Source: Gemmatimonadota bacterium
Lineage (GTDB): Bacteria > Gemmatimonadota > Gemmatimonadetes > Gemmatimonadales > GWC2-71-9
Length of the DNA stretch: 64,000 bases
Reading direction: 5' to 3'
Assembly: GCA_009692115.1 (NCBI GenBank)
Contig: SHZU01000009.1
Span: forward strand, 1 to 64,000
Shown: one piece after another, positions 10,930-64,000 of the stretch
Numbering within the stretch: the stretch's first letter is position 1
How the letters are laid out: every line of letters begins with the position of its first letter
The notes under the pieces: generated by a model
Databases searched by the model: none
The model's input: only the letters and a program-made list of their open reading frames with translations
What the model was told of the DNA's origin: nothing
Made by a program: the position numbers and the translations under genes

Positions 10930-10964
10930 CTCGGCACTCGGCACTCGGCGGTCGGCACTCGGGG
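10930..10964 (+). repeat. Heptad tandem repeat copy a (about 5 units)
   Basis: Five consecutive 7-bp units of the CTCGGCA/CTCGGCG type (one starts with G) lie directly after the secY stop. The same unit recurs at about nine other gene borders in the window. It runs straight into the terminator hairpin. Confidence 0.8.
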
Positions 10965-20995: not shown

Positions 20996-22345
20996 ATGGC
21001 CACCCCGACTGTCATGGACAAGCTCGCTTCCCTCGCCAAACGCCGCGGGTTCGTATTTCAATCCTCGGAGGTCTATGGGGGTTTGGGCTCGGTTTGGGAT
21101 TACGGACCCCTTGGGGTCGAGCTAAAACGAAATATCAAGGATCGCTGGTGGCAGGCGATGGTTCGGTCTCGGGACGATATTGAAGGCCTCGATGCGGCAA
21201 TTCTGATGCACCCGAAAGTCTGGGAGGCGTCCGGACACGTCGCCGGATTTAGCGATCCTCTAGTCGACTGCCGGACCTGCAAGGCCCGGTTCCGGGCCGA
21301 CCAGATCAGCGATGGCCAGTGTCCCCAGAAGCCGTCGAAACGACCGGGGGAGCACTCGACGTGCGACCTGACCGAGCCCCGAATGTTCAACCTGATGTTC
21401 AAGACCTTCATGGGCCCGGTCGAAGAACAAGCCTCGGTGGTGTACCTCCGGCCTGAAACGGCCCAGGGCATTTACGTCAACTACTTGAACGTGCTCAACA
21501 GCTCGCGGCAGAAAGTGCCCTTCGGCATTGCCCAGATCGGGAAGGCCTTCCGGAACGAAATTACGCCGGGGAATTTCATCTTCCGGACCCGGGAGTTCGA
21601 GCAGATGGAAATGCAGTTCTTCGTGAAACCGGGCACGGACGCCGAGTGGTTTGAACGGTGGCGGGCGCTCCGGATGGCCTGGCACCACGAGCTCGGGCTC
21701 AACCCGGCCAAGCTCCGCTGGCATGAGCATGGACCGACCGAGTTGGCGCACTATGCCAGGGCGGCCTACGACATCGAATACGAGTTTCCGTTCGGGTGGC
21801 ACGAAATCGAGGGGATTCACAATCGGACCGACTTCGACCTGAAGCGGCATCAAGAGGCCTCGGGCAAGAAGCTCGAGTACTTCGAGCATGCCACTGGCGA
21901 ACGGTTCGTTCCGTTTATCGTCGAGACCTCAGCCGGGGCCGACCGAGTGGCGCTCACGGTCATGGCCGACGCCTATCACGAGGAGATGGTGGAGGGTGAA
22001 ACCCGCGTGGTCATGCGGTTCCACCCTGCCGTTGCGCCGATCAAGGCGGCCGTTCTGCCCTTGATGAACCGGGAGCGGATGCCCGAGCAGGCGACCGAGT
22101 TGTTCAACGATCTCCGCAAGCACCTGCCGTGCTTCTACGACGACAGCGGGGCCATCGGGCGGCGGTACCGGCGGATGGATGAAGTGGGGACGCCGTTTTG
22201 CATCACGGTCGACGGCCAATCGGCGGAGGACGGTCAGGTCACCGTGCGGCACCGCGACTCGATGGCCCAGGAACGGATCGCGTTTGGCGCGGTGCTCGGG
22301 TATCTCGGCTCGGCACTCGGCGCTCGGCACTCGGCGCTCGGCTGA
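20996..22345 (+). CDS. glyQS: Glycyl-tRNA synthetase, dimeric class II type
   Basis: The 449-residue single-chain enzyme starts MATPTVMDKLASLAKRRGFVF and has YGLGSVWDYGPLG-like motif 1 sequence (VYGGLGSVWDYGP). Motif 2 includes RPETAQGIYVNYLNVL and FRNEITPGNFIFRTREFEQMEMQFF-type sequence, and there is a C-terminal anticodon domain. The last ten or so codons ([12 protein letters not shown]) are encoded by the heptad repeat, so the original C-terminus was probably replaced. An ATG six codons downstream is an alternative start; no clear ribosome binding site precedes either. Confidence 0.95.
   Translation: MATPTVMDKLASLAKRRGFVFQSSEVYGGLGSVWDYGPLGVELKRNIKDRWWQAMVRSRDDIEGLDAAILMHPKVWEASGHVAGFSDPLVDCRTCKARFRADQISDGQCPQKPSKRPGEHSTCDLTEPRMFNLMFKTFMGPVEEQASVVYLRPETAQGIYVNYLNVLNSSRQKVPFGIAQIGKAFRNEITPGNFIFRTREFEQMEMQFFVKPGTDAEWFERWRALRMAWHHELGLNPAKLRWHEHGPTELAHYARAAYDIEYEFPFGWHEIEGIHNRTDFDLKRHQEASGKKLEYFEHATGERFVPFIVETSAGADRVALTVMADAYHEEMVEGETRVVMRFHPAVAPIKAAVLPLMNRERMPEQATELFNDLRKHLPCFYDDSGAIGRRYRRMDEVGTPFCITVDGQSAEDGQVTVRHRDSMAQERIAFGAVLGYLGSALGARHSALG
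22304..22342 (+). repeat. Heptad tandem repeat copy c, inside the glyQS 3' end
   Basis: Five alternating units of CTCGGCA and CTCGGCG form the last codons of glyQS and supply its TGA stop. Because the unit is 7 bp, any change of copy number would shift the frame of the enzyme's end. Confidence 0.8.
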
Positions 22346-22349
22346 CGGC

Positions 22350-23042
22350 GTGGAGCTTTCGGGGTTTGAGGACTTGGTGCGGCGGTTGGCGGTGGATATT
22401 CCGGAGGAGTTTTTGGACGGGATCTCGGAGATTGTGGTGTCGCCGCGGACGGTGGCCCATCCGGAGCGGGAAGAGATTTTTACCCTCGGGGAGTGTATCC
22501 CGCTCCCGACCACCTCGGACGACCCGGATGCCCTGCGGAGCCGGGTGGTGCTCTACCATGGTTCCTTCCAGGCCTTGGCGCGGGACCAAGACGATTTCGA
22601 CTGGCACCACGAGGTCTGGGAAACCCTGACCCACGAGATTCGCCACCACGTGGAGTGGCGAGCCCAGGAACCCGCGCTCGAGGCGTTCGACGAGGCGACC
22701 GAACACAACTTTGCCCGGCTCGCGGGGGAGCCGTTCGATCCGACGTTCTACCGGGACGGGGAGTCGGTGCCCGGAGGCGTGTTTCGGGTCGAAGACGACT
22801 ATTTTGTCGAGGTGGAACGAGACGGGCCCGGTGGGGTGGTGCGGTTCCCGTGGGCTGGAGGGCGGTACCGGGTCGAGTTGCCGGGCGATCTCCGGCTGCC
22901 GGCCTTCCTGTCGGTGCAGGGCGTTGAGGCGCCCCCGGCCGGCGAACTCGTCCTCGTGGTGGTCCGGCCGCCGAAGCTGATGGATGTGCTTCGCACCCCG
23001 GAGGTCGATCAGCGAGAAATTTGGGCGGAAGCGGAACAGTAA
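22350..23042 (+). CDS. Predicted small zincin-type metallopeptidase
   Basis: The start is set at GTG 22350, 7 bp after the glyQS stop, giving 230 residues. The only strong motif is HEIRHHVEW near residue 95, an HExxH zinc site with an extra His, as in the compact zincin-1 (PF06262-like) family found in many actinobacteria and relatives. The N-terminal half is the zincin domain; the C-terminal 110 residues (from about GGVFRVEDDYF) look beta-rich and were not recognised. No signal peptide is seen, so it should be cytosolic. The substrate is unknown. Confidence 0.7.
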   Translation: MELSGFEDLVRRLAVDIPEEFLDGISEIVVSPRTVAHPEREEIFTLGECIPLPTTSDDPDALRSRVVLYHGSFQALARDQDDFDWHHEVWETLTHEIRHHVEWRAQEPALEAFDEATEHNFARLAGEPFDPTFYRDGESVPGGVFRVEDDYFVEVERDGPGGVVRFPWAGGRYRVELPGDLRLPAFLSVQGVEAPPAGELVLVVVRPPKLMDVLRTPEVDQREIWAEAEQ

Positions 23043-48884: not shown

Positions 48885-50126
48885 ATGGCCATTGCCTCCC
48901 GCCGAGTCACCCCGACCGTCGTTATCGGCGGGGCGCCGGTTGGCTCCGCCCATCCCGTCATGGTTCAGTCCATGACCAACACCGACACTGCCGACGTCCT
49001 GGCCACCGTCCGGCAAGTTGCCGTGCTGGCCCGGGCCGGGAGTGAGGTCGTTCGGGTCACGGTCAACAACGACGAGGCGGCGGCCGCGATCCCGGCGATC
49101 GTCGAGGAGCTCGACCGGCTGGGGCTCGCCGTGCCGATCGTCGGTGATTTCCACTACAACGGCCACCTGCTGCTGACCCGGTATCCGGCATGTGCGCGGG
49201 CCTTGGCCAAGTACCGGATCAATCCCGGCAACGTCGGCGGCAAGCGCCACGACGAACATTTCCAGGCCATCATCGACGTTGCCCTCGCCAACGACAAGCC
49301 GGTCCGGATCGGGGTCAACTGGGGCTCCCTCGATCAGCAGCTCCTGACTCAATTGATGGATGAGAACGCCGCCCGGCCCGACCCGCTCGAGGCTCGCGAC
49401 GTGACCATGAATGCGATGGTCGAAAGCGCGGTGCGTTCCGCGGCCCAGGCCGAGTCACTCGGGATGGCGCACGACCGGATCATCCTGTCAGCCAAGGTCT
49501 CCGGGGTTCAGGATCTCATCGACGTGTACCGAATGCTGGCCGCCCGGTCGGACTACCCGCTCCATCTCGGCTTGACCGAAGCCGGCCTCGGCATGAAGGG
49601 TATCGTGGCCAGTACCGCCGGCCTCGCCGTCCTCCTGCAGGAGGGCATCGGTGATACCATCCGGGTGTCGTTGACTCCGGCCCCCGGCGGCGACCGGGCC
49701 GAAGAGGTCCGGGTGGCCCAGCAGATTCTCCAATCGTTAGGTCTCCGGAGCTTTCTGCCCCAGGTCACCAGCTGCCCCGGCTGCGGCCGCACCACCAGCA
49801 CCTTCTTCCAGTCGATGGCCCAGGAAATTCAAGACTACCTCCGCGACCAAATGCCGGCGTGGAAAACCACCCGACCGGGCGTCGAAACGATGAAGGTGGC
49901 GGTCATGGGGTGCATCGTGAACGGCCCCGGCGAGTCCAAACACGCCAACATCGGGATCTCCCTCCCCGGCACCGCCGAGGACCCCCGAGCCCCGGTCTTC
50001 GTCGACGGCGCCCTCCGGAAGACCCTGAAAGGCGATGCGATCGTCGCCGAGTTCCTCGCCATCCTCGACGACTACGTCGCCACCCGCTTCCCGCCGAGTG
50101 CCGAGTGCCGAGCGCCGAATTCCTAG
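48885..50126 (+). CDS. ispG: (E)-4-hydroxy-3-methylbut-2-enyl diphosphate synthase
   Basis: A 413-residue enzyme of the MEP isoprenoid pathway that converts MEcPP to HMBPP with a 4Fe-4S cluster. The N-terminal barrel shows [14 protein letters not shown] and the segment [10 protein letters not shown]. The cluster ligands lie in [11 protein letters not shown] and [21 protein letters not shown]. The last residues ([11 protein letters not shown]) come from a heptad-repeat block and are not family sequence. Its 3' end overlaps the next gene by 22 bp. Confidence 0.96.
50092..50122 (-). repeat. Heptad tandem repeat copy d, at the ispG/ccdA-like junction
   Basis: Reverse-orientation units (GCCGAGT, GCCGAGT, GCCGAGC, GCCGAAT) encode the C-terminus of IspG in one frame and the GTG start and first residues of the next gene in another. 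Confidence 0.8.
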
Positions 50127-50797: not shown

Positions 50798-51300
50798 GCT
50801 CGGCACTCGGCAGGTGCGGGTTGATCGTTCTGGGGGTGGGGTTCGGGGGGCCGGTGGCGGCGCAGTTTGATGCGGGGATTCCGATCGGGACCAAGGCGCC
50901 GGTCATTGCGGTCAATGGAATGGACGGGAAGCCGGTTGATCTTGGGGCCTGGGTGGGCAAGCAGCCGGTGCTGATCGAGTTCTGGGCCACGTGGTGCTCG
51001 GTTTGTCAGGACCTGTTGCCGGAGCTTGAGGCGGTTCGGACACGATATGGTGACCGGGTTCAGATGATTGGGGTCAACGTCACGGTCAACGACTCCCGCG
51101 ACCGGGTCCGCCGGTATTTGGGGGTCCACAAGCCGCCGTTCCTGGCCCTCTATGACGACACCGGGGTCAGTAGTCGGGCCTTCGACGTCCCAATCACCTC
51201 CTATATTGTGGTCCTCGACGCCAAGGGCACAGTGGTCTACACCGGCTCCGGCTCGGACCAAGACCTGGTGGCCGCAGTGGCCAAGGCCATCCCCCGATGA
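50794..51300 (+). CDS. TlpA-like periplasmic thioredoxin
   Basis: A 168-residue thioredoxin-fold protein with an N-terminal signal ending in GGPVAAQ and the active site WATWCSVCQ near residue 67-75. GTKAPVIAVNGMDGKPVDL and a cis-Pro in VPITSYIVVLDAKG complete the TlpA/ResA pattern. It probably receives electrons from the CcdA/DsbD-like protein and reduces periplasmic thiols. Codons 2-7 (SSALGR) are formed by a heptad-repeat block, so the signal peptide start was remodelled. Confidence 0.88.
   Translation: MSSALGRCGLIVLGVGFGGPVAAQFDAGIPIGTKAPVIAVNGMDGKPVDLGAWVGKQPVLIEFWATWCSVCQDLLPELEAVRTRYGDRVQMIGVNVTVNDSRDRVRRYLGVHKPPFLALYDDTGVSSRAFDVPITSYIVVLDAKGTVVYTGSGSDQDLVAAVAKAIPR
50797..50812 (+). 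repeat. Heptad tandem repeat copy e (short)
   Basis: About two units (GCTCGGCACTCGGCAG) form codons 2-6 of the TlpA-like gene, immediately after its ATG. Confidence 0.6.
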
Positions 51301-61453: not shown

Positions 61454-62872
61454 ATGACCCTCGAACAGCGGCAGCAGGTGGCGGCAGACTACGGACCGGC
61501 GGTCCGGGTAACGGCGATCGGTGTGACGGTGACGGATCCCGCCGTGTTGCGGTCGTCGGCGACCGACCAAGTCGTGTGGTTGGCGGTGTTTGGGACCCCC
61601 GCGGAACAGGAAGCGGCTCGCTGGCTGCTCTGGGAGATCGGCCAGGCGGTTGGAGTGATGCCGGCATCGATTCAGGATCTCTATACCGCTCGGGGCCGGG
61701 GCGAGTGCGGTGGGTTTACCGTCCCGGCCATCAACGTGCGGATGATGGCGTACGATACGGCCCGGGCGGTGTTCCGCGCCGCGATCAAAGCCAATGGCGG
61801 CGCCATTCTGCTCGAGATTGCCCGATCGGAGATCGCCTACACCGAGCAGCGGCCGGCGGAGTATGTCGCGGTGATGATCGGCGCGGCGCTTCGGGAGGGC
61901 TACCGGCTCCCGATCTTCATCCAAGGCGACCACTGCCAGGTCAACGCCAAGAAATATCAATCCGATCCGGAGGGCGAGGTCGGCGAGGTCAAGAAGTTGA
62001 TTGCCGAGGAAGTCGGCGCCGGCTTCTTTAACATCGACGTCGACACCTCGACGCTGGTCGATCTGTCCCGCCCGACGCTCGACGAACAACAGCGCGACAA
62101 CTACCAGCGGGCGGTCGAGATCACGGCGTTCATTCGCGGGCTCGAGCCGAAGGGCGTGACGGTCTCGATCGGGGCGGAAATCGGCGAAGTCGGGCATAAG
62201 AACAGCACGGTGGAAGAGCTCCATGCGTTCATGCAGGGGTACAACCGGGCATTGGCCTCCCGGGGCAAGGGGTTGACCGGCATCAGTAAGATCTCGGTGC
62301 AAACGGGGACGTCGCACGGCGGGGTGGTGTTACCGGACGGCTCGATGGCCGACGTGAAGCTCGACTTGGCCGCCCTGGAGGCCCTCTCGACCGCGGCCCG
62401 GCAGTACGGGATGGCGGGGGCGGTGCAGCACGGCGCTAGCACGTTGCCGCAGGGCGCCTTCGGGAATTTTCCGCGGATCGAAACCGCCGAGATCCACTTG
62501 GCCACCAACTTCCAAAGCATGGTCTTCGATCATCCCGCGCTGCCGGGTGACCTTCGGCAGTTGGCCTACGGCTGGCTCGACCAGCATGCCACCAGCGAGA
62601 AGAAACCGGACGATACGCCCGAGCAGTTCTACTATCGGGCCCGGAAGCGGGCGATCGGGCCGTTCAAGAAGGAGTGCTGGTCGCTGCCCGAGACGGTCCG
62701 CTCGGCGATTGCGGCCGACCTGGAGAAAATGTTCAGCTTCCTGTTTACGCAACTTGGGGTGACCGGGACGGCTGATGTGGTTCGGAAGTACGTCCAGCCG
62801 GTTCGGTTGGGCCATGGCGACTTGACCAAACCGGCCGTCCGGGCGGTTGATGACGCCGACGCGGGGGAATGA
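61454..62872 (+). CDS. Class II fructose-bisphosphate aldolase family protein
   Basis: A 472-residue zinc-dependent aldolase-fold enzyme. The N-terminal 80 residues are an extra domain; the barrel starts at GGFTVPAINVRMMAYD. Metal and substrate segments are LPIFIQGDHCQV, NIDVDTSTLVDL, VSIGAEIGEVGHKN, VQTGTSHGGVV and MAGAVQHGASTLPQ. It is longer and more divergent than the common Fba, and so may prefer a related sugar bisphosphate; with pyk and pgi next door, a glycolytic role is likely. A promoter candidate lies 33 bp upstream. Confidence 0.85.
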   Translation: MTLEQRQQVAADYGPAVRVTAIGVTVTDPAVLRSSATDQVVWLAVFGTPAEQEAARWLLWEIGQAVGVMPASIQDLYTARGRGECGGFTVPAINVRMMAYDTARAVFRAAIKANGGAILLEIARSEIAYTEQRPAEYVAVMIGAALREGYRLPIFIQGDHCQVNAKKYQSDPEGEVGEVKKLIAEEVGAGFFNIDVDTSTLVDLSRPTLDEQQRDNYQRAVEITAFIRGLEPKGVTVSIGAEIGEVGHKNSTVEELHAFMQGYNRALASRGKGLTGISKISVQTGTSHGGVVLPDGSMADVKLDLAALEALSTAARQYGMAGAVQHGASTLPQGAFGNFPRIETAEIHLATNFQSMVFDHPALPGDLRQLAYGWLDQHATSEKKPDDTPEQFYYRARKRAIGPFKKECWSLPETVRSAIAADLEKMFSFLFTQLGVTGTADVVRKYVQPVRLGHGDLTKPAVRAVDDADAGE

Positions 62873-62932
62873 CGATGGTGTTCTTGCTTGGGGGGTGGTG
62901 GCCGAGATCTGGGAACTCCGGGAGATGCAGGT

Positions 62933-62953
62933 CTCGGCACTCGGCGCTCGGCG
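62933..62953 (+). repeat. Heptad tandem repeat copy i
   Basis: Three units (CTCGGCA, CTCGGCG, CTCGGCG) lie in the gap after the aldolase gene and are followed by a G-rich stretch (GGGTAGCGGGTAAGGGG). Confidence 0.75.
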
Positions 62954-63095
62954 GGTAGCGGGTAAGGGGGGGTGGGGGTATTTTGACGGGCCTCCAGGTC
63001 CGAAGGATGCTGGCGCGCGAACCGCGTCAGGACCTTGCCGGTAGCAGCGCTAAGCGATGTCCAGTATTGCTTCGGGGTGCCTGGGGGCACTTTTT

Positions 63096-63115
63096 CTCGG
63101 CACTCGGCACTCGGG
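63096..63115 (+). repeat. Heptad tandem repeat copy j, left flank of the S23-like gene
   Basis: CTCGGCACTCGGCACTCGGG runs into GGGTTAGGGTGGGGGG, which supplies the TAA stop and last codons of the reverse-strand four-helix-bundle gene. With copy k it forms an inverted pair around that gene. Confidence 0.75.
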
Positions 63116-63117
63116 GG

Positions 63118-63432
63118 TTAGGGTGGGGGGATGGCGTGGAGGAGCCGGTTGAGGCTGCGGCCGGATCCCAACTTCATCATGGCGGCTAGGCGGAGTTGGG
63201 TGTCCATCTCGGCCACTGATCCCATCGCGATTCTGAGGTAGCGGAGGTACTCTTTGGTGCCCCCGCGGCCGTAGCCTTCGGCGATGTTCGAGGGGATCGA
63301 GATCGAGGTCCGCCGGAGCTCCCGGCCGAGCACCTCGGTTGGCGGCCAGGTTGCCGTGGTTGCGTGCACCGCCCGCGCCAACTCCATACTCAGTGGCCAC
63401 GTTCTCAAATCCCGATAACTCCGAATCGCCAC
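63118..63432 (-). CDS. Four-helix-bundle protein of the S23/IVP family
   Basis: A 104-residue protein from GTG 63432 with SYRDLRTWPLSMELARAVHA, then SIPSNIAEGYGRGGTKEYLR and AEMDTQLRLA. These are the marks of the family first known from intervening sequences inside 23S rRNA genes; the same fold is used by Avd of diversity-generating retroelements. Here it is free-standing, flanked on both sides by heptad repeats in inverted orientation, and it ends within one of them. It lies opposite in strand to its neighbours, just before dnaX. Function unknown. Confidence 0.85.
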   Translation of the reverse strand: MAIRSYRDLRTWPLSMELARAVHATTATWPPTEVLGRELRRTSISIPSNIAEGYGRGGTKEYLRYLRIAMGSVAEMDTQLRLAAMMKLGSGRSLNRLLHAIPPP

Positions 63433-63496
63433 CCGTTCCCTCCCATTTTCTCAGGTCCCCGCCAATCCTATCCCCACCCCATCAACCCAATGTCAA

Positions 63497-63524
63497 CGCC
63501 GAGTGCCGAGCGCCGAGTGCCGAG
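63497..63524 (-). repeat. Heptad tandem repeat copy k, right flank of the S23-like gene
   Basis: Four reverse-orientation units (GCCGAGT, GCCGAGC, GCCGAGT, GCCGAG) preceded by CCTATCCCCACCCC lie 65 bp before the S23-like start and end 14 bp before the dnaX ATG. Confidence 0.8.
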
Positions 63525-63538
63525 ATTATCTTCCTGCC

Positions 63539-64000
63539 ATGATCGCCCTCGCCCGGAAGTACCGTCCCCGCCGCTTTGCCGACCTCCTCGTGCAGGATCA
63601 TGTGGCGGCCGCGTTGCGGGGTGCGATCTCCAAGGGCCGAGTCGGCCATGGGTACCTGTTGACGGGTCCGCGGGGGGTTGGCAAGACGACGGCGGCGCGG
63701 ATCTTGGCGATGGCGCTCAATTGCGAGCGGCAAGATGTGAAGGCCAGGACCGGCGAACCGTGCGGCGAATGTGACACCTGCCAGCGGATCTGGAGTGGGT
63801 CGGCCAACCTTGATGTGATCGAGATCGACGCGGCGAGCCATCGGAGCGTGGACGACGCCCGCGATCTTCGGGAGCGGGCCATGTATGCGGCGTCCCAGGA
63901 GGATCGCTACAAGGTTTACATCGTCGACGAAGCGCACATGCTGACCCGGGAGGCCTGGAACGCGCTCCTCAAGATCCTCGAGGAGCCGCCGCCGCGGGTC
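63539..64000 (+). CDS. dnaX: DNA polymerase III subunit gamma/tau, N-terminal part (partial)
   Basis: The gene starts at ATG 63539 and runs off the window after 154 codons. ALARKYRPRRFADLL is the DnaX N-terminus, the P-loop is GPRGVGKTTAAR, a zinc module has CGECDTC with an upstream Cys in LNCERQ, and the Walker B is VYIVDEAHMLTREAWNALLK. It is the ATPase of the clamp loader. The region where its ribosome binding site should be is occupied by heptad repeat k; none is visible. Confidence 0.96.
   Translation, partial: MIALARKYRPRRFADLLVQDHVAAALRGAISKGRVGHGYLLTGPRGVGKTTAARILAMALNCERQDVKARTGEPCGECDTCQRIWSGSANLDVIEIDAASHRSVDDARDLRERAMYAASQEDRYKVYIVDEAHMLTREAWNALLKILEEPPPRV

Follow-up and report, generated by a model that had tools for sequence, protein, structure and literature searches.

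Is the S23 gene that lies just upstream of dnaX an ordinary gene that happens to have repeats on either side, or do the gene and the two facing heptad arrays around it form a single unit with the arrays as its ends? We addressed this question in a 64,000-nt stretch of DNA (the window), which opens contig C9 of a Gemmatimonadota genome of 3.12 Mb (the host genome), using Gemmatimonadales MAGs as relatives. A sequence-only reading had earlier proposed the second alternative, a possibly mobile cassette, of which solo repeats elsewhere could be derivatives. The features of the locus are as follows.

61454-62872, plus strand: class II aldolase-family gene (fba-like), the left neighbour (PF01116, E 2e-14)
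62883-62930, plus strand: remnant of a brkB/yihY-family gene, ~16 codons (tblastn 62.5% over 16 aa, E 0.17)
62933-62953, plus strand: third heptad array, left of ffs
62992-63089, plus strand: SRP RNA gene ffs (RF00169, 47.3 bits, E 6e-9)
63096-63116, plus strand: left array of the cassette, with three CTCGGCR heptads, sequence CTCGGCACTCGGCACTCGGGG
63118-63432, minus strand: S23/IVP four-helix-bundle gene, 104 aa (PF05635, E 5e-22; TIGR02436, E 3.5e-20)
63433-63496, minus strand: leader, from the upstream array to the S23 start, with the C-rich (plus-strand) inner flank
63497-63524, minus strand: right heptad array, four units, inverted relative to the left array
63539-64000, plus strand: start of dnaX, the right neighbour, which continues past the window (TIGR02397, E 3e-66)

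We observed the following. The left and right arrays form a 20-nt inverted repeat of 95%; with the G-rich and C-rich inner flanks included, it spans 44 nt at 77%. The bracketing of the S23 gene by a forward (63096) and a reverse (63497) repeat with such flanks, noticed by the sequence-only reading, was confirmed, and S23 indeed lies antisense to its neighbours (S23 on the minus strand, the aldolase gene and dnaX on the plus strand). Some details of that reading required correction. It had placed S23 between the aldolase gene and dnaX, but ffs, which it overlooked and which is the sole Rfam match in 62700-63700, intervenes, and S23 is located between ffs and dnaX. Beside the two arrays of the bracket there is a third, at 62933-62953. 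The S23 stop codon is a TAA at 63118-63120 that abuts the left array; the same array also abuts the T-run that follows ffs (63091-63095). The S23 start is a GTG behind a GGGAGG ribosome-binding-like stretch. In computed folds, the 430-nt cassette transcript pairs end to end (hairpin z -4.3). In profile searches the cassette gene matched the S23 domain alone, and a transposase with a known catalytic motif was not found in it. Another gene of the window, at 50821-51300, likewise sits between facing arrays.

The S23 protein scored 78.5 bits against PF05635 (cut-off 33.8) and 72.2 bits against TIGR02436 (cut-off 24), with most of the domain covered. Its AlphaFold model (pLDDT 96.3) is a four-helix bundle with a short fourth helix. 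In the alignment, ~16 residues are missing before helix 4 relative to most S23 members, which suggests an internal loss at this place, and the window copy may be inactive, though it folds well in silico. The nearest solved structure was 2gsc (XCC0516 of Xanthomonas campestris; TM 0.89), followed by 2rld, also of the S23 family, and weakly by Avd; the predicted bundle is close to structures that were solved with five chains. Related S23 pairs have a dN/dS of ~0.1-0.2, indicating that these proteins are maintained under purifying selection. Phage records searched with the 2gsc sequence gave no match. To our knowledge, S23/IVP proteins, whose structure has been solved since 2006 (2gsc), have no known function, and no nuclease or recombinase activity is known for S23; nor do we know of any agent for the spread of dispersed heptamer arrays in bacteria.

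The heptad itself is abundant in the host. The window contains 32 near-matches to CTCGGCACTCGGC, compared to 6.0 expected (0 of 100 shuffles), and the 19-nt heptad pattern CTCGGCRCTCGGCRCTCGG has 178 matches in the host genome (0 for the reversed control). The latter pattern had no match in 60 relatives, five of the same genus included. A 464-kb sample of the host genome, where genes were called by a purpose-made simple hexamer model and on which the array statistics rest, yielded 46 arrays, 38 of them outside genes. Among the 23 arrays of this sample whose upstream gene has the same orientation, 16 begin 1-7 nt past the stop codon of that gene. Five arrays of the window could be read against congeners, and ordinary spacers were found there except at the array at 10930, where the S23-less congener G003 has a different heptad, AGTGAGN (L274, G003:C32:8325-8344), present once in its genome. 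The absence of the arrays from congener sites, together with the placement at stop codons, indicates that CTCGGCR arrays spread recently and insert at the 3' ends of genes; this habit of the arrays would by itself account for the contact of the S23 stop codon with one of them. Facing arrays that do not enclose an S23 gene also occur, five in 400 kb of the host genome. Two window arrays (22309-22350 and 50092-50119) run into gene 3' ends and replace C-terminal codons that are seen in congeners.

As S23 is single-copy in the host genome, our first expectation was an accidental bracket, made by a species-specific repeat around the one S23 gene. This expectation was overturned by a flank test in relatives. 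Relatives devoid of the CTCGGCR heptad have up to 14 S23 genes, and in other Gemmatimonadales inverted repeats flank S23 as well, often built from tandem units of 7 or 8 nt whose sequence varies among the copies. Among located genes with full flanks, inverted repeats scoring at least 14 were present at 59 of 82 S23 genes. Random windows from these loci reached that score in 3 of 820 cases and mismatched pairs in 38 of 6640, and the S23 flanks had an excess of lag 7. The other 23 genes are without a strong bracket, and some of the arms consist of long imperfect repeats instead of tandem units. The proposal, which stood to fall if other S23 genes of the clade lacked such flanks, survives this comparison. 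Its expectation that these genes would be bounded by the same repeats was borne out for the inverted arrays, which are regular, but not for the unit, which differs between copies and genomes.

The window cassette has a typical geometry. Its downstream arm starts at +3 nt from the S23 stop codon, as does the median arm, and its upstream arm ends 73 nt before the S23 start, the median over the 59 loci being 82 nt. On the outside, the bracket directly adjoins a stop codon at 16/59 loci on the left and at 25/59 on the right, compared to 3-4% in controls. A motif upstream of S23, AATGRTG, was considered as an end signal and discarded, as it was found at too few genes (18/83; 6/920 in controls).

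Similar brackets were found on plasmids. In a set of 14 plasmid S23 genes, thirteen cyanobacterial and one from Gemmatirosa, 11 score at least 14, and 10 of these are cyanobacterial; one locus of the set (L218) was not above its local control. The units here are, for example, TAGGGAG in Nostoc edaphicum and AGGGAAC in Nostoc sp. C052. Some cyanobacterial plasmids carry S23 (at ~1201-1569 of the extracted loci) inside cas clusters, with the order cas6, S23, cas4 in two cases and cas10, S23, cmr3 in one (L209, L215 and L216). Three S23 genes that are 72-76% identical (L169, L198 and L205) apparently represent one locus in three genera, beside a gene that looks like mnmG. Each of these three copies has an array unit of its own that is shared by its left and right arms, which seem to undergo concerted evolution.

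Next, we compared loci with and without S23. At the window locus, S23 is absent from all five congeners, and ffs adjoins dnaX in each of them (inverted relative to dnaX in G002 and G003, at L141:2057-2156 and L142:2047-2146). An arrangement that is ancestral and fixed in relatives, which would have spoken against the cassette, was accordingly not what we found, and since none of the five congeners has S23, a gain is the simpler explanation at this locus. The uninterrupted fba-dnaX junction that the sequence-only reading had suggested looking for in relatives was not found: the readable congeners (L032, L038 and L059) have the order fba-ytxH-brkB/yihY-ffs-dnaX. The ytxH and brkB/yihY genes have been lost in the host except for the ~16 codons within 62872-62930; the match of this remnant is weak by itself (E 0.17), yet it lies at the homologous place, and the intact gene in four congeners matches PF03631. 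The congener G005 has a different gene, an M14 peptidase, beside ffs. G039, which belongs to another family, has a divergent S23 gene (25% identity) beside dnaX on the other side of ffs (L195:1224-1889), and the ffs-dnaX neighbourhood has thus been occupied twice.

The flanks of six S23 loci of G032 were searched in nine congeners. Alleles without S23 consist of a short junction devoid of any array, with one exception that retains a solo arm. At L170, the empty form has convergent genes with overlapping stop codons (CTAG), while in the filled form one stop codon is followed directly by the left array and the right array extends into the other one. At L171, the insert is full-length in G032, G062 and G068; G064 and G067 have neither insert nor array, and G066 has the right-hand array alone. 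Stop codons were retained on both sides of the S23 inserts, and no constant target-site duplication was readable from these diverged congeners. This comparison, which is one of presence and absence rather than of gain and loss, supports the view that the arrays arrive with S23 at the G032 loci. Two parts of the sequence-only reading therefore hold up: the repeats as ends of a unit, given the empty alleles without arrays, and the solo repeats as derivatives, given the one solo-array allele.

We then asked whether dispersed arrays and S23 genes occur together. At the threshold used, no period-7 array was detected in 671 kb of five S23-less genomes, and six S23-bearing genomes had 43, 30, 10, 200, 10 and 0 of them per Mb. 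Two genomes, G039 and G053, have many S23 genes and few dispersed arrays. In 100 kb of G060, 19 of the 20 arrays share a 12-mer with a flank of its own S23 genes, compared to a mean of 0.35 matched against 76 S23 flanks elsewhere; two array families were present, GGCTATT with L180 and GTGACTA with L005. Arrays of GGTGTCN and GGAGTCN are confined to genera having S23 copies of that unit. Across 59 S23 genes, protein identity and unit similarity are correlated in a Mantel test that leaves out pairs with homologous flanks (r 0.18; 0 of 1000 permutations higher). Adjacency to stop codons is common to S23 cassettes and solo arrays. Facing arrays without a gene occur seven times in 100 kb of G060. 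The spacers enclosed by facing arrays that lack S23 are unrelated, and no S23 remnants were seen in them; array-only insertion is therefore needed besides deletion from cassettes.

From these data, we consider it probable that the segment 63096-63524 represents a cassette built around S23: a selfish unit of DNA, similar to an IVS, that settles at gene 3' ends, carries its arrays with it and is the source of the dispersed cognate arrays. Support for the cassette and for its derived position is good, and comparison between loci and genomes bears out, at the level of sequence, the unit structure, the presence and absence of the unit, its placement at 3' ends and the cognate dispersed arrays. The cassette would consist of a heptad array, a leader, the S23 gene and an inverted array, with a unit sequence that is particular to a cassette lineage and the genome carrying it and not to the whole S23 family. 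Arrays of this unit would spread as solo or facing copies at gene 3' ends, both by cassette decay and by array-only insertion. As to the mechanism, the inverted arrays would pair into a hairpin, as RNA or as a single strand, as the computed folds predict. S23, with its predicted four-helix bundle resembling the DGR protein Avd, would then bind the cognate array, and together with a host or trans-acting enzyme could promote the insertion of array-bearing copies beside stop codons. The preference for sites beside stop codons emerges from the comparison of loci; the parts played by S23 and by the enzyme, and mobilisation by S23, are our inference. Finally, recombination or slippage would leave solo arrays, of which one allele was seen, and alter the number of units. 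The earlier cassette interpretation, taken as a whole, is thus partly supported.

Several known systems share features with this cassette. The S23-encoding IVS in the 23S rRNA of Coxiella is 428 nt long and has a 28-bp terminal stem (PMC4990558). Like the rRNA IVS, which are regarded as selfish, the cassette has one S23 gene, a unit of ~430 nt and complementary ends that can form a stem. Unlike them, it is located between ffs and dnaX, its ends are tandem arrays of a heptad that is dispersed through the host, and its S23 gene is antisense to the neighbours; since the cassette is not in an rRNA gene, an IVS in rRNA was rejected. The RAYT/REP/REPIN systems resemble it in having a gene flanked by an inverted short repeat that is dispersed outside genes, and in the pairing of protein lineage and cognate repeat. 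However, the cassette protein is a four-helix bundle, and the repeats are tandem heptads and not single REP hairpins. As a search of the host genome for the Y1_Tnp (HUH) transposase (PF01797) gave no match and S23 is unrelated to it by profile, RAYT/REP proper was also rejected. Terminal inverted repeats, found at 59/82 S23 loci, are shared with DNA transposons, but the cassette gene has the S23 domain alone and is without a transposase catalytic motif. The fold is similar to the four-helix bundle of DGR Avd (TM 0.64-0.71 in the PDB comparison), whereas the identity is 10-14% with weak E-values. The neighbours of S23 (the aldolase gene, ffs and dnaX) include neither a reverse transcriptase nor a gene with variable repeats.

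Dispersed short tandem 7-nt arrays are known in cyanobacteria as STRR. The cassette arrays are similar to these, to the dispersed TAACTGA arrays (PMC4679880) and to the GGGNATC arrays near stop codons in Xanthomonas (PMC4692102) in being short, tandem, of 7 nt and mostly intergenic. They differ from the latter two in the sequence of the unit, and neither PMC4679880 nor PMC4692102 mentions S23. Xanthomonas, the genus with the GGGNATC arrays, also has the S23 protein of solved structure. A literature search, with preprints and most subscription journals outside it, returned no paper joining S23 and heptads and none with the CTCGGCR heptad; with this reservation, S23 and its cognate heptad arrays would be an undescribed linked system.

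We also considered rival explanations. The arrays could be host 3'-end elements, acting in termination, mRNA stability or G-rich structure and both amplified and kept by selection, with S23 as their nucleic-acid-binding regulator that is autoregulated by its own flanking copies and with nothing mobile. The position of the arrays a few nt from stop codons, with a constant orientation relative to the gene, the purifying selection on S23, the regulatory role proposed for TAACTGA arrays (PMC4679880) and the 3'-end positions of GGGNATC arrays (PMC4692102) are in line with such elements. However, the arrays do not keep their positions from one congener to the next, an S23 locus that is filled in one congener can be empty in another, and a single genome has S23 copies with different units; we regard this explanation as unlikely.

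Alternatively, the arrays may be independent, and an S23 core may insert into the centre of standing palindromic arrays, as rRNA IVS, which replace helix tips (PMC4990558), do at the tips of helices. Facing arrays without a gene do exist in both the host (five in 400 kb) and G060 (seven in 100 kb). Pre-existing palindromic arrays as targets are nevertheless disfavoured by the empty alleles, none of which had a palindromic array where they could be read at the six loci, and S23-less genomes are without such arrays; we regard this explanation as improbable. Flanking of an ordinary S23 gene by two of many dispersed arrays is hardly credible, dense as the arrays are in the host (46 in 464 kb) and despite the gene at 50821-51300 being similarly placed, as the same bracket surrounds S23 in dozens of genomes whose repeats are unrelated; chance is unlikely for the S23 family and was rejected at that level (59/82 compared to 3/820), though for the window locus viewed by itself it is conceivable.

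The reading that we favour, a selfish cassette that carries its arrays, can be extended beyond this genome in a tentative manner. It is possible, though we would not yet lean towards it, that S23/IVP proteins are the trans-acting partners of selfish elements present across phyla, whose ends are copy-specific tandem heptads, and that they generate and spread the heptamer arrays at stop codons in Gemmatimonadota, Cyanobacteria and perhaps Xanthomonas; the rRNA IVS would then be a particular instance, one that ended up within the helices of rRNA. The link would give both the S23 proteins and the heptamer arrays a testable partner, and would make the rRNA intervening sequences part of a larger group of elements residing at gene ends. 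Such elements change the C-termini of proteins and can be located within operons, for example cas, and S23 cassettes may have given rise to the 7-nt repeats that are scattered through such genomes.
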